A stretch of 64,000 bases of DNA from NCBI GenBank assembly GCA_963969365.1, contig OZ017750.1, positions 2,914,001 to 2,978,000 of the forward strand. The letters are read 5' to 3'. Every line of letters begins with the position of its first letter. The stretch's first letter is position 1. This DNA comes from Asterochloris sp. CNOR1 (lineage: Eukaryota > Chlorophyta > Trebouxiophyceae > Trebouxiales > Trebouxiaceae). Positions 3,401 through 60,700 of this stretch are shown in pieces. The position numbers and the translations under genes are program-made. The notes under the pieces are model-generated. The model was not told the DNA's origin. It did no database searches and worked only from the letters and a program-made list of their open reading frames with translations.

Positions 3401-6400
3401 AGCCTTGGCACTGCCTGCGTGGCTGCCCTTCTGTCTCACAGCGTACTTGAACGTGGAGCAGATGTGGGGGTGAGTGATGGAGGTCGCCACCAGGGCTTCT
3501 AAGGGAACAAGTACACCGTCCTCCCTGCGCAAGCAGCCGCCTGGAGGTACGTGCACCATCTGCAGCACAAGCAAGGTAGGAGTGCACCAAGTGAGGGATG
3601 TGATGGCGTCGGCGCTGGAAGGAGCACATGCTATCCCCAGCTGCAGCCCCACCAATCGTATGGCAGTCTGGCAGGCAAATCAGACGATGGCCGCAATGGG
3701 AAGCATACAGGCCCACCTTGACAGCCACGCGGCTGCCGCGCCACTCTGCGCGGAACAGCTCCCCGTCGACGCCCTGGCGCAGCGGCTCCCGGATGGTCAC
3801 GTCTGAGAAGGCGTCCAGGGGCTCAGGCGCCAGACGAGCGCCTGCAGGCAGGCAGGAGGAGCTACAGTGAACCAGGCTGCTCAGCAACCTGCAAAACGGA
3901 GAAAGACAGCCACAGCTGCCGTCCCAGGTTGAGGCAACGCAGATCTGATTGACTGGGGCTCAGGCACTAGGTGAGCGCTTGCAGGCGTGCAGAAGGCACG
4001 ACTGATTCTGCTTGACTGCTTGCGGAGAACAGGGAGGCAGTGACAGTTGCTGTCGCTGCCTGAGTCGCCGCAAAGCTGGATGATAGCGCACCAGATGAGC
4101 GCCTGCAGGCAGGATCTGATTCTGCTTGGACTGCTTGCACAGGCAGGCAGGCGCGGTTGCTGTCCCTGCATGAGTCTATGCAAGCTTAATGCCCAGGGGC
4201 TTGCTCAGAAAGGCACCTACCTGGAGGCCCAGTCCATCTGCTGTGGATCACTGCTGCTTTGACAGGCACAACAGGATGATCTGGCACCAGATGGCAGCCC
4301 ACCACAAGCTAGACCTGGCCTGCATGGCTGAGGAGACTGTGCACCTTTTGAGGGCCACCTCCACTGAGCGCTGCAGCGATGCAGTCAGAAGGGTGCCGCA
4401 GCAGCGACAGCTGCAGAGCTGGGGACTCCAGGTGGAAGTTGTGCTGCACCAGGAATGCAGCAACCAGCAGCTCATGTTCAATTCCATGGCCACAGCACCC
4501 AGGGGCCCACCTCTGTGAGGCTCAGCAGGTGCGTAGAGAGGCTGAGGGGAGTGGAACATGCCCTGCCCAAAGCTGCTGCTGCCGTCCTCAAAGCTGAACA
4601 TGACCCCGCGGAAGGAACCCCCTGCTGAGCTGGCGGCGCTGAGAAAAGATTTTGAGCGCGGTCCTCCTGGCCGCTGAATGCTGGCAGGGAGCAGGCTGGA
4701 GGCCTGCAGCAAAACCTGGTGCTGTTTGTAGGTCAGGCGACCGTGGGGCAGGAGGTGGTTCACCTCTGTATCAACCATTGGGCAAAGGCACTTGACGAAA
4801 GGGATGAGCGCCTTCAGGTGCAGTGTCAGCAGTCTGCAGCAGCCTCAGGTGATGAGACGGCTACTAGGGTGGCACCGGGCCGGGAGGGCCAGGTGCCAGC
4901 AAGGCACTGTCTGGGGGCTTTGACAGGAGGTTAAGATCAAGTGCTTGTGCTGTTTGCGGCTGCAAGGCGCGCCGGGAGCCTTGTGAGCTGGTGGATTGTG
5001 CTGATGACCATCCATTGCAGTCATTTGCTGTTGCAGCAGATGCTTCAAGCTCACGCCAGGGCCGCTGGGCAGCTCGAGGCCGCTGGATTTGATGATCACC
5101 CAACACTGCATTTGCAAAGCATGCCTCACCTCGCTGCCAGCAGAGTTGACCAGTGAGGGGGTGTCCTCCATCAGGCTTACAAAATACAGGCCAGTGGAGG
5201 CGGGCGTGTTGGCAGGCTCCAGGAAGCTGGGCAGGCCGACGAGCGGGGCAGAGCTGTCCAGCTGTGGCTTGGAGGCTGGCCTGCAGGTGTGGGACCCAAA
5301 GCCGGCGGGCTGAGAGAGGGTAGGACTCAGGAGCGTCAAGCAGCAGTGAGTGGCGCCGGGCACATCTGAGGAACATGACTCCCACCGCAGAAAAATTGGA
5401 CAGGCAGAAAGCAGGCTGTGCTTGTGCACTACAGGCTGGCGTTCTGTGTAGCATGGCACAGAAGGACAATTAGTTGTGCTTTGCAGTAACGGACTGCCAG
5501 AGGAGATTGCAATACCGTTGCAGACTGCCCAATAAGGCCAGAACGGCCCCTCCCACCTGAAGCGCAGCAGCATGGAACGCCCCTGCATCTCCCCAACAGC
5601 CAGTGTGAACTCATGATTCTGGCTGAGCGCAAAGGCAGCCCCCTCCTGCAGCATAGCACATAGGTCCCTGAAAGCAGAGCATGATGCAGCAACAGCCTGT
5701 GCCTGACGGCCTCGCTGCTTCCGCAGGTATGCTGTGGCACCCCAAGGGTTCAAGGTTTGCAGTAGTGGACGATGCCTGGGCCATCTTGGGACGTCGCAAA
5801 CGCATCGTATGCGTGCAGGCAGGATAAGCTGCTCAGCAAGGTGAAGCTGCAAGACAACAACAAGACATCTTGGGCAAGAATTGAAGCTCACTGAGCATAC
5901 CTTGCTGTCCTCTGCAATAGGGAAGATGTCTGTCAGGTGATTGCCAGTCAGGGCGCCCCCCTGCTGCGGCAAAGCCTGCTGCCAGCCCTGATTGGCGTGG
6001 AGGACAGGCCAGCCTGGCTCGCTCATGTTGCACAGCATCAGGCCCTGCACAGTGCAAAAGTGAGGTGTGCTTGCAACTTCACCATAACAAGTATGGCCGC
6101 ACCCGCAGTCTGCAAGCCATTTGTGCAGCAAGGATGCACACGCTCTGACACCTTACTTATTGTTGATGTTGCTTGTCAAGAGCATGAACAAGGTGTACAC
6201 TTGACACAGCAGCAAATATCACAGGAAGCTCTCAAAGGTCAGCGATAGCAAGGCTGGCAGATAGTGCTATAACAGGAGAGGCCCTGCCACATGCTTTGCA
6301 GCCTCCTCAGCTGCACCTCCAACCAGATGTGCTGAGGTCATGGGGCCACCTCAGACAAACACTCAAAGCATTGCCAGGCAGCCACGCTGAGCAGAGTCAA

Positions 6401-57755: not shown

Positions 57756-60700
57756 ATGAGCACAGGCCACACCTGCCACAGAGGGCTGGCCAGGCTGCTC
57801 AGTGGATCTGGCAGGCTGAGGGCGCCTCCCAGGGCAGCACATCTTCACGCTTGGAGGACCACCCCTTGCCTGAAGCAGATACACTGCACCCTGGCACGTG
57901 CTGCACACAACGGCAGCAGCAGCTCCCAGGCGTATGTTATCACGACTCCTCTGTACTACGTCAATGCAGGTCAGCCCTGCCTGTGCAAAGGCTGGCCTGT
58001 CCTTCACAAATCAGGGCTGCTCTCAGGAAAAAGTAAACTGCTGCTGCAGCGCCTCATATGGGTAGTGCCTACTCCACCATTTCAGCTGACACATTGGCCA
58101 GGTTCCAGGCAAGCACTCGCACACCCTGTCCCCCTGCCGCACAATCCAATGCTCTGAACCTGGGACCTCGCGCCTGCCTGGGCCGCCCCTCTTAGAGCTC
58201 CCCAATTGCATCCCTGTGCATGTCCCCAATGGCATCGCTGTGCCGCTCAAGTCAAAGCATCCATTCCTACAGTCTTGAGACAGTTAGGCAGACCTGCACC
58301 CAAGTGATAGTTCAGCACCTTGGGCTCTATGCCTCCCTGCTAAGCCTCCGCAAACTCCTGCCTGCTGCAGCGTTTACAAGGCAATCAAGTTACACTTATC
58401 ACTGGTACTGATGAGCATGGCGAAAAAATAGCCTTAGCTGCAGCTGCTAAGGGCCTAGACCCGCAGCAGCACTGCAACGAGATTGCAGACCTTTACAAGT
58501 CTTTGTGGAAACAAGTGAGTCACCAGGCGCTGGCATGCGCACATCCTCACTCTTGTGTGGCCATCTGTGACCACTGATGATGCGCTGCCCTGCACCCTCA
58601 TTCTGGGAGCAGCTTTGTTTTCAGGTTACAGAATACATCTGAAGCCCTCCTCATGACTCTGCTGCAGCTAGACATCCAATATGACTCCTTTGTGCGCACT
58701 ACAAGTAAGCAACATGAGGTATGCTGCTGCACACTCAGATTGGCAACCTGAGCTGTGCATCCTGGCAATGGCTGTTCCATCAGGGCGTGTGCAGCAGTGG
58801 GCCCTCCATCACGTTGTACATTGCATGCAGGCTAACGTCGCCAAGATGTTGCAGCGAGTGTGGGACAAGGGTGACATCTACAAAGATCGGTACTCAGGTA
58901 CACTCAAGAGTGCTACAGCTTGCACTCAGTGCCTGTTTATGCACTGAGCGTCGTGATTTGAGACCCCAGCCTACAGCCTGCACTGGTATTTGCACATTGC
59001 TGCTAGGTCTGCAGGCCTCTGCCTCCAGTAGCCAGGGATGGGCCATCTAGAGGTTTAGGTGTCATCTTGTGCCTGCTGGGTGGACTCAGCTCCCGGGAGT
59101 TGCTGGCAGGCTGTGGCCTGTCTCTCCCATTCTCCAAACTGCCTGACAGAGCACACATTCCCCCAGAAGCCTGGGCTGATGTACAGGCCAGATGTGTGTG
59201 GACTGCATCTTCGGCAAGACAGCCAGGCCACCTGGGCTAACATTCAGCATTCCCGACATCAACACCAAGGTGGTCATGCTCTGGAAGGCAGCTTACCATT
59301 GACGGCTGGAAAGCAGGCCATCGTCTTGTGACTGCAAGCTGGCACTGTGTGGGCTCTGGAGTGTGTGGGCTCTGGAGTGGATGAAGTTGTGCTGCGGGTG
59401 TATAATGCACCTGACCAGGCAGCAGAATGCCCTCCAGATTGCTGTGCCACTGCAGCCTGTTGTTCTAGATATTGCAACAACATGCTCTCATGCTGAAATA
59501 CAGGCTGGTCCCATGTGGGTTGTGGGATGTTCACTCTGTTCCTGGGACTGCAGGCTGGCACTAGATGGACTATGTGCTCACCTGAGATTGGCCAGTGCCT
59601 GCAGGCTGGTACTGTGTGGGCTGTGAAGAGTACAAAGCAGATGACGACTTGGATGAGCAGCACATCTGCCCTGCTCATCAGAAGCCCTGTGAGCACAGAG
59701 AAGAAGAGAACTACTTCTTCAGGCTGACTGCCTACCAGCAGCAGCTGCTGGTGCGTGCACACGTGCACAGCTACCTGCAGGACCTGTCCTTATGGCCTGC
59801 TGGTAGCAGCTTGCAGGTGCATGCGTTGGCAGCCAGCCAGCTGCAAGTCATACACGTGCCGGCAAGCATGGACACAGCCAGGTACCATGGCAGGACAGAT
59901 TTGCTGCCCATGCACCTGCATTGCAACCCTAGCAGGACATCAGCAACCATGCTTGTGCTGCTCCCTGGCCTGGGCCACGTATACAACTGTCGCAAGGGAC
60001 TTGCAGCAGGACAGTACAGCTGTTAAACCCGCGCTGTCAAGCGTGCCGAGCCCTGTAGTGCCCACTGCAGGAGCTAATTGAGGGCAACCCTGACTTTGTG
60101 CGCCCATCATCCCGGCGCAACGAGGTGCTGGGCTGGGTGAAGACCGGCATCCGGGACTTCTCAATATCCCGGGCAGCTGTGGCCTGGGGCGTGCCCATCC
60201 CTCAGGATCCAAAGCAGACTGTGTACGTCTGGTTTGATGCCCTGACTGGGTACCTCTCAGGTGACACACAGCTGAGCATGCTTATTGCCTGCAGCAGGGC
60301 TTCTTTGTTGTTGCCCACTGCTGCTTGCCCACCGCTGACAGGTGCTTCAGGCTTGTCACATTGTTGCCGCCCAAGGCCACACTGTGAGGGCTGCCTGATG
60401 GCACCTGCTTGCATGCTGTGCAGGGCTGATGCGTGACAGCGAAGACTTCTCAGCCAAGGGATTGCAGGCACATGGCTGGCCTGCCACCCACATCATTGGC
60501 AAGGACATCCTGCGCTTCCACGCTGTGTACTGGCCAGGGATGCTCATGTCCGCGGGGTTGCCCGTGCCACAGCAAGTCTTTGGGCATGGCTTCATCACCA
60601 AGGCACGCCACAGTGTCTTCTCTTGAAGGCTTGGCATATTGGGCAGCAGCATGGCACCTGCACAGCTCATGGCTCACATGTGGCCCAAGCACCCTGTGAA

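Follow-up and report, generated by a model that had tools for sequence, protein, structure and literature searches.

Our results demonstrate that introns in the predicted genes of Asterochloris sp. CNOR1 contain copies of the edges of their adjoining exons, both in the window (the whole 64-kb stretch of contig OZ017750.1 that was analyzed) and in 300 kb from elsewhere in the genome. The copies are in excess over controls, lie in direct orientation with a defined distance profile, are restricted to exon edges, and occur in longer introns. Their probable origin is local tandem duplication inside genes, in direct orientation and with units of close to 100 bp, after which the intronic copy decays.

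The gene models are predicted only. A self-trained HMM gene finder returned 72 genes, 837 exons, and 765 introns on the 364 kb, with a typical exon of about 135 bp and a typical intron of about 228 bp. In the edge test, the 30 coding bases at each junction, with the splice consensus left off, were compared with their own intron; introns of 80 to 800 bp with at least 40 bp in each flanking exon and a coding sequence of at least 450 bp were admitted, giving 525 of the 765 introns, in 64 genes. Repeat pairs were also listed, with low-complexity and redundant pairs dropped ahead of counting. In the window list (score of at least 16), the low-complexity filter also removed pairs longer than about 70 to 110 bp; a remade list that takes in longer pairs contains 23 more at a score of at least 20, two of which (L024:3702 and L013:6112) are fairly fresh.

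Of 525 acceptors and 525 donors, 30 and 26 (56/1,050 edges together) matched their own intron at p≤0.01, in agreement with the sequence-only reading of this DNA, which had reported copies at acceptors and donors alike. Its suggestion of a genome-wide process is borne out by the rates outside the window (22/436 acceptors and 24/436 donors, with 8/89 and 2/89 inside). At least one match was present in 54 of the 525 introns, about one in ten, some of these being due to chance. An earlier, smaller run with less sequence and introns of at most 600 bp gave 18 and 16 matches in 449 introns. That reading would have fallen had shuffled introns matched equally well, and they did not: a score of at least 15 was reached by 33 of 1,050 real edges versus a mean of 1.8 and a maximum of 4 with re-dealt introns (40 re-deals). 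At p≤0.01, the reverse complement gave matches for 3/525 acceptors and 6/525 donors, the far edge of the same exon gave 2/367 and 1/348, and exon bases 60 to 90 gave 2/385 on the acceptor side and 6/361 on the donor side. CTGCAG is abundant in the genome (849 CTGCAGCTGCAG sites versus 1 for the pattern read backwards), which would favor an artifact of CTGCAG-rich, GC-rich composition. However, re-dealt introns, reverse complements, far edges, and distant offsets are all at background; composition therefore does not explain the matches, and such an artifact is almost certainly the wrong explanation.

The signal declines with depth into the exon, from 56/1,050 at the junction to 31/983 at bases 15 to 45, 17/899 at 30 to 60, and 8/746 at 60 to 90, where it is about at control level. 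Introns with a match are longer, as had been proposed (median of 441 bp versus 246 bp without; Mann-Whitney p=3e-13). Among the 56 matched edges, one copy was found in 40, two in 14, and three in 2 (score of at least 12, where weak ones may be due to chance), which corrects the range of one to six described earlier. The spacing of 50 to 180 bases given with them is corrected to copy-to-junction quartiles of 99, 120, and 181 bp (median of 119.5 bp). Similarity extends weakly into the intron-side flanks of the copies (excess of 1.07 ± 0.31 at 8 to 33 bp). The reading of the copies as alternative or mutually exclusive exons under selection would be in line with several pairs whose conserved core is an exon edge plus its splice site. 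It is nevertheless highly improbable: the splice dinucleotide is retained in only 22/56 copies (AG in 13/30 and GT in 9/26), edges and not whole exons are copied, far edges being at the low rates given above, and offsets that are multiples of three are not enriched (11/56, slightly low, p=0.03). The decoy splice sites envisaged earlier are mostly lost (34/56 copies lack AG or GT).

Orientation and distance point to local tandem-type duplication, as the sequence-only reading had held, with an excess of direct copies and inverted controls near background. In a threshold-free 8-mer test, direct intron-intron matches were 1.35 to 2.12 times baseline at offsets of 24 to 200 and about 1.0 past 350, while inverted ones were 0.83 to 1.32 times baseline at offsets of 24 to 200; direct exon-intron matches reached 2.15 times at 90 to 105 and 1.72 times at 105 to 120, where inverted ones were at 1.05 and 0.98. 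Exon-intron pairs thus prefer offsets of 90 to 120 bp, and intron-intron pairs are broadly spread. Local pairs with a score of at least 16 numbered 291 at offsets of 16 to 500 versus 23 at control offsets. Tandem spacing and whole-unit similarity are supported in part. At edges with two copies, the second distance was 1.8 to 2.35 times the first in 7/16 (rough null mean of 2.9, P=0.013, for a range picked post hoc), and unit coverage was at least 0.8 in 39% of 102 pairs (from the list without pairs over about 70 to 110 bp). Coverage was below 0.65, with unlike remainders, in 7/15 high-identity pairs. Fresh full-length units are scarce: among 121 pairs with offsets of 50 to 300 and a score of at least 20, a score/offset of 0.6 was reached by 2, and none combined a core/offset of 0.8 with an identity of 0.9. 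For units below 50 bp, score/offset was at least 0.6 in 21/33 pairs, a contrast that is unfair as the score threshold favors freshness there. TRF reported 8 rows in the window, none of them a junction array of about 100 bp, so that the loci do not qualify as classical minisatellites. The best copy was the nearest in 10 cases and the farthest in 6, which leaves ticker-tape growth, with the freshest copy closest to the junction, unsupported, and offset was not linked to identity (rho of -0.06, n=85).

These observations suggest the following mechanism. Direct head-to-tail duplication would act within genes on short stretches, mostly about 60 to 200 bp long, with lengths that peak broadly near 100 bp. 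A unit lying wholly in an intron would only lengthen it, and one lying across an acceptor or donor would copy the exon edge too. The junction that preserves the protein would stay in splicing use, and the other copy would become part of the intron and decay neutrally, splice site included; recurrent events would leave two or three copies, spaced more or less regularly. Units would rarely be retained, presumably being removed by selection, if they lay inside an exon or put a second splice site no more than about 70 bp away.

The sequence-only reading placed the process at splice junctions as such, and a related explanation is transcription- or splicing-coupled copying of about 50 bp around a junction to a site some 100 bp distant in the adjacent intron. 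Several results favor it: under random placement, 32.9 I-J and 5.7 J-J pairs are expected versus 70 and 15 observed; the 7/15 high-identity cores mentioned above are confined to the edge, with unlike spacers; the 90- to 120-bp preference is seen in exon-intron pairs, distances within introns being broad; the exonic part is shorter than uniform breakpoints predict; and between genes there is no clear direct excess (204/181 = 1.13 versus 1.70 in introns). Neither this last feature nor the scarcity of fresh units is accounted for by the proposed tandem duplication. However, a unit of about 100 bp placed anywhere in a gene will often cross a junction because exons and introns are so short. In simulations of uniform tandem duplication, the ratio (I-J + E-I)/(I-I) ranged from 0.97 to 1.16 in four of five settings, and the oldest setting gave 3.68; the observed value is 119/100 = 1.19. 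The simulated junction share is thus similar to that observed, which lowers the odds of junction-linked copying, as do the similarity in intron-side flanks and the tandem spacing in some two-copy cases. We therefore regard junction-linked copying as unlikely, and the best reading is that junctions need no special role. A broader version, in which junctions in transcribed genes are hot spots of transcription- or splicing-linked copying and introns of this lineage lengthen step by step at their ends, by about 100 bp each time, so that length records past duplication and not selection, is quite unlikely too. Template switching while DNA is repaired or replicated, which would insert copied pieces of 20 to 60 bp nearby irrespective of junctions, is consistent with some high-identity cores that lack flanking similarity (L010:5882 and L027:3204), but it predicts far-edge and inverted copies, both of which are about at control level, and we consider it very unlikely. 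Pure dispersed insertion is likewise disfavored by the exon gradient and the absence of an inverted-copy excess.

Several points weigh against tandem duplication itself, namely, the few fresh full-length units, the patchy cores, the steep exon gradient, an overshoot in the simulated old setting, and the reliance on predicted gene models. Steady one-step duplication from age zero was rejected: it predicts full-length fresh pairs at 27 to 31% (3.5% at ages of 0.1 to 0.6) and coverage below 0.65 in 2 to 4% of high-identity pairs (5/23 and 2/6 at older ages), versus the 2/121 and 7/15 observed. Only the old-event setting (0.25 to 0.6 substitutions per site, one of four) came near the observed intron-flank excess (0.90 versus 1.07); it was also close for the exon side (8.8 versus 8.6) and overshot at exon bases 40 to 65 (1.78 versus 0.92). 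The net exon gradient is estimated at about 1:0.5:0.2:0.1 versus 1:0.8:0.6:0.3 in the uniform-breakpoint simulation, and it agrees better with a short exonic part. Old events, as a population, match the data better than steady turnover does; this may reflect either an old burst or rapid loss of fresh identical repeats.

Gao and Lynch (2009) reportedly described ubiquitous internal gene duplication, with small within-gene duplications spanning introns and exons. The pattern, for which the sequence-only reading knew no name, involves an event type that a study of a potato RdRp gene calls tandem genomic duplication; there, one duplication crosses an intron-exon boundary, and an 83-bp tandem duplication lies inside an intron (PMC4974935). 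As in that gene, the proposed duplicated unit here crosses a boundary, is of similar size, and carries splice signals and an exon edge. Unlike the potato case, where a new intron and exon arose in one gene, the extra copy is absorbed into an existing intron and decays, in up to the one-tenth of introns given above, chance matches included. In a related model of intron gain, exon segments that bear AGGT are tandemly duplicated (Rogers 1989 and Hellsten 2011, as described in PMC3443670; for Drosophila, PMC2891723); there too, a gene undergoes a local direct duplication and one of the copies turns into intron. That model makes introns from exons, whereas the copies here occupy introns that already exist and are associated with greater length of these; intron creation of this kind was rejected for the present copies, the copy not being at the opposite intron end (median distance of 119.5 bp versus introns of 441 bp). 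Intron length here is similar to the Chlamydomonas medians of 198 to 343 bp, and the driver of green-algal intron length, far above the minimum, is left open in the excerpted account, which in that part does not mention exon-edge copies (PMC8226300). We propose such duplication as a candidate cause. In the literature excerpts looked at, the kind of event is known, and its density and bearing on long green-algal introns appear to be new. With such duplication as the cause, intron growth would have a mutational source that can be measured, the exon-edge copies serving as internal tags that make the intron-length question testable; each copy can be dated because the exon is a conserved reference.

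Table of exon-edge copies and related repeats in the window (d, offset; id, identity; p≤0.01, edge match)
Gene	Feature	Position	Strand	Details
Kinase	Working exon edge and acceptor (junction ~3841)	3818..3859	-	pairs with 3955-3996; d 137; id 0.81
Kinase	Acceptor edge	3827-3852	-	pairs with 4088-4113; d 261; id 0.92
Kinase	Intronic decayed copy 1 of 3841 acceptor edge	3955..3996	-	pair list
Kinase	Intronic copy 2 of 3841 acceptor edge	4088..4113	-	pair list
Kinase	Mostly intron-intron pair	6866..6924 with 6974-7032	-	d 108; id 0.71; 6 bases into exon at 7027
Golgin-like	Working acceptor edge, junction 8906	8869..8914	-	p≤0.01
Golgin-like	Intronic copy of 8906 acceptor edge	8964..9009	-	d 95; id 0.78
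Golgin-like	Intronic copy of 10329 acceptor edge (10299-10336)	10418..10455	-	d 119; id 0.82; 38/47 columns; p≤0.01
Golgin-like	Intronic copy 1 of 11891 acceptor edge (11869-11899)	11982..12012	-	d 113; id 0.84; p≤0.01
Golgin-like	Intronic copy 2 of 11891 acceptor edge (11828-11901)	12078..12151	-	d 250; L 74; id 0.77
Golgin-like	Intronic copy of edge at 16439-16494	16519..16574	-	d 80; id 0.68
RAD54B-like	Intronic copy of acceptor edge 21398-21438 (junction 21412)	21318..21358	+	d 80; id 0.90; p≤0.01
Aminotransferase	Four-copy degenerate array (31696, 31866, 31957, 32053) up to predicted acceptor 32065	31696..32097	+	
Sirtuin	Edge ~36764-36811 and relatives 36671-36722, 36567-36624	36567..36811	-	spacing ~95-98
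Amidohydrolase	Intronic copy of donor edge 43369-43411	43202..43244	-	d 167; id 0.77
Amidohydrolase	Intronic copy of donor edge 45147-45190 (junction 45158/45157)	44965..45008	-	d 182; id 0.86
bZIP	Acceptor edge and decayed copy 185 bp upstream	52924..52987	+	47/66 columns; p≤0.01
TPR	Acceptor edge 55831, intronic copy at offset 109	55794..55836	-	p≤0.01
MetRS	Intronic copy 1 of 59605 acceptor edge, carries 16-bp tandem repeat	59328..59364	+	d 267; id 0.84; TRF 59346-59379
MetRS	Intronic copy 2	59501..59524	+	d 101; id 0.83
MetRS	Intronic copy 3	59541..59574	+	d 51; id 0.74
MetRS	Working acceptor edge, junction 59605	59595..59631	+	p≤0.01; protein aligns gap-free to MetRS 2csx across junction

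Five of the nine genes listed earlier (golgin-like, RAD54B-like, amidohydrolase, bZIP, and MetRS) have edge matches at p≤0.01. The kinase, aminotransferase, and sirtuin genes have repeat pairs but no edge match at that level, and the WD40 gene was not confirmed, with no pair at a score of at least 16 in the window list and none among the 23 long pairs. The earlier claim that the functional exon is always the family-conserved copy was examined in two genes and agrees with the alignment in MetRS and, loosely, with that in amidohydrolase. The golgin-like 8906 edge has a further copy at offset 181 (48/63 columns; 8855-8912, id 0.74), the RAD54B-like gene has a second, low-scoring match at 25458 (score of 12; p≤0.01), and 70/95 columns are alike at the amidohydrolase 45158 edge (p≤0.01). 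Pairs in the aminotransferase array, where exon calls are uncertain, have d values of 170, 260, 353, 183, and 93; in the sirtuin gene, 36573-36624 pairs with 36671-36722 (d 98, id 0.73) and 36567-36614 with 36764-36811 (d 197, id 0.81). Gene prediction can go astray at intronic copies of exon edges. This probably happened in the sirtuin gene, where the short predicted exon at 36569-36601 is likely to be a copy, and at kinase copy 2, where the mini-exon at 4092-4102 is probably an error; the kinase intron was left out of the edge test since this adjoining exon call is only 11 bp. The TPR gene, absent from the earlier list, has a second matched edge at 56464, with a copy at offset 70 (p≤0.01).

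Our results demonstrate that decayed copies of exon edges occur in the adjoining introns across this genome. We analyzed a genome of 56.4 Mb in 21 contigs, whose intron style, GC content, and size suggest a green alga, sampling the window (C5:2914001-2978000), of which nearly half was read by eye, and 300 kb from contigs C1 to C4. Gene models are predictions without RNA support, with errors present. They come from a small gene finder, an HMM that was trained on its own predictions in the sampled DNA and converged on donor CAG/GTGAGC and acceptor CTGCAG/G (slash, junction). Seven of the eight window proteins scanned matched Pfam (SNF2/Helicase_C, Aminotran_1_2, Amidohydro_3, tRNA-synt_1g, SIR2, WD40, and TPR); the eighth, the kinase-like protein scanned over its N-terminal portion, had no match. 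The working junction of MetRS is crossed gap-free in a protein alignment to 2csx. The CTGCAG bias of the genome is strong and perhaps extends beyond acceptors; CTGCAGCTGCAG occurs 849 times genome-wide versus once for the reversed letter order.

For each of 525 introns, the edge (the 30 coding bases at the junction, without splice consensus) was compared with its own intron, against length-matched introns of other genes. At p≤0.01, 56 of 1,050 edges matched (acceptors, 30/525; donors, 26/525), versus 3/525 and 6/525 in the reverse-complement control; with about 1% of edges expected by chance, perhaps some 10 of the 56 are false. The shuffled-intron control proposed by the sequence-only reading bears its claim out: 33/1,050 edges reached a score of at least 15 versus a mean of 1.8 after introns were re-dealt, and 12 edges versus 0.1 did so at score 19. 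The rate drops with depth into the exon (acceptor and donor, respectively: bases 15 to 45, 14/495 and 17/488; 30 to 60, 8/456 and 9/443; 60 to 90, 2/385 and 6/361), and opposite exon ends matched in only 2/367 and 1/348. At least one match was found in 54/525 introns, including 6/45 in the seven Pfam-supported window genes, and 53 of the 56 matches stay when the repeat-rich golgin-like gene is left out. As that reading also held, copies go with longer introns (median, 441 versus 246; p=3e-13).

Exon-edge copies and related repeats. Bare positions are in the window; L-numbers are stretches of analyzed sequence with local coordinates.
Feature	Position	Copies or repeat
MetRS working edge	59605	relatives at 59328, 59501, 59541 in 707-bp upstream intron
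Kinase gene edge	3841	copies at 3955 and 4088
Golgin-like gene acceptor	11891	74-bp stretch repeated 250 bp off, identity 0.77
Golgin-like gene coding repeat	15480-15795	~120 bp, 72% matches, 2.6 copies
Sirtuin-gene intron	37157-37571	several overlapping internal repeats, offsets 76, 214, 265, 341
Methyltransferase-like gene donor edge	L015:7845-8018	copy at +108 bp, 36 bases identical
Freshest ~100-bp unit	L013:6112-6290	offset 86, identity 0.85
Freshest ~100-bp unit	L024:3702-3920	offset 104, identity 0.80
29-bp unit spanning donor	L011:9928-9999	identity 95%
29-bp unit spanning donor	L024:2027-2089	identity 100%
Third 29-bp unit	12725-12782	93%

The sequence-only reading knew of no name for the pattern; the event type is already known, tandem duplication across exon-intron borders being in print, in the parts of the papers available, as single cases and models (PMC4974935, PMC3443670, PMC2891723, PMC8226300, and PMC4298173). 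Among the titles and abstract openings listed, none describes a genome in which one intron in ten holds decayed copies of an exon edge, and PMC8226300, in its available part, leaves open what drives long algal introns. The interest lies in the density of copies, compared so far within one genome.

The repeats are local and direct. A first, ungapped self-comparison of the window (32-base windows, at least 25 identities) gave 40 direct repeats at offsets 32 to 400 and none at 400 to 2000, 5000 to 5500, or 9000 to 9500; two sampled 100-kb blocks were similar, with one pair each at 400 to 600 and none beyond. Copies lie a median of 119.5 bp from the working junction (10th to 90th percentiles, 82 to 241 bp; 56 matches), 19/56 at 90 to 120 bp and 2/56 below 60 bp. 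Exact 8-mer matching, a threshold-free test of offset and orientation, gave intron-intron direct matches at 1.35 to 2.12 times baseline at offsets 24 to 200 and about 1.0 past 350, with inverted matches at 0.83 to 1.32. Exon-intron direct matches had their maximum at 90 to 105 (2.15), then 105 to 120 (1.72), with 0.88 to 1.26 at 36 to 75 and 2.23 at 24 to 36 (n=44 matches). Direct/inverted ratios at 36 to 200 were 1.70 in introns (2132/1254), 1.69 in exons (979/580), to which coding repeats may add, and 1.13 between genes (204/181; p=0.18 versus distant pairs). The predicted intergenic stretches, a small sample of 32.6 kb, showed no clear excess of direct local repeats, their 8-mers being erratic at 24 to 200 (direct, 0.42 to 2.55; inverted, 0.68 to 2.41); local pairs cover 1.4% of their bases versus 6.3% of intron bases. 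The golgin-like coding repeat is an exonic counterpart of the intronic units. Copy offsets divisible by three were slightly too few (11/56; p=0.03).

Local tandem duplication, the process proposed from sequence, is right in kind, but its specificity for junctions was overstated. Among local pairs (score at least 16, offset at most 400), those joining intron (I) to junction (J) do exceed random placement (70 versus 32.9 expected), as do J-J (15 versus 5.7) and I-I pairs (100 versus 86.8), with fewer than expected for exon (E) and intergenic (N) classes (E-I, 49 versus 64.1; E-E, 28 versus 34.3; E-J, 5 versus 18.9; N-N, 8 versus 20.3). The splice consensus is ruled out as the source of the I-J excess, because pairs at distant offsets show no such preference (I-J, just 6/94). 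Hot-spot junctions are not needed: the observed (I-J + E-I)/(I-I) ratio is 1.19, and simulated uniform duplication with decay gave 0.99, 0.97, 1.13, and 1.16 (3.68 for the oldest ages). Geometry suffices, together with the slower decay of copies that lie in exons. Live decoy splice sites were likewise overclaimed, as AG persists in 13/30 acceptor copies and GT in 9/26 donor copies, with no sign of retention among these; neutral expectations of 21.4 and 19.0 come from aligned identity, which local alignment inflates, and the list includes false matches.

Dissimilar remainders accompany 7/15 high-identity pairs, compared with 2 to 4% in simulations with ages from zero, 5/23 for ages 0.1 to 0.6, and 2/6 for 0.2 to 0.6. 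Fairly fresh whole units (score/offset at least 0.6) number 2 of 121 pairs at 50 to 300 bp, versus 27 to 31% under simulated steady turnover and 3.5% for ages 0.1 to 0.6. Simulated old events (0.25 to 0.6 substitutions per site) left survivors near the observed exon-side and intron-side similarity of edge matches, which three other settings did not fit. Because of these three results, we favor the reading that the repeats are mostly old tandem duplications viewed through survivor bias; the scarcity of young units stays unexplained. The 29-bp duplications spanning donors are near fresh. In the methyltransferase-like gene, which we take to be HEN1, direct reading reveals a more decayed donor-edge copy farther on.
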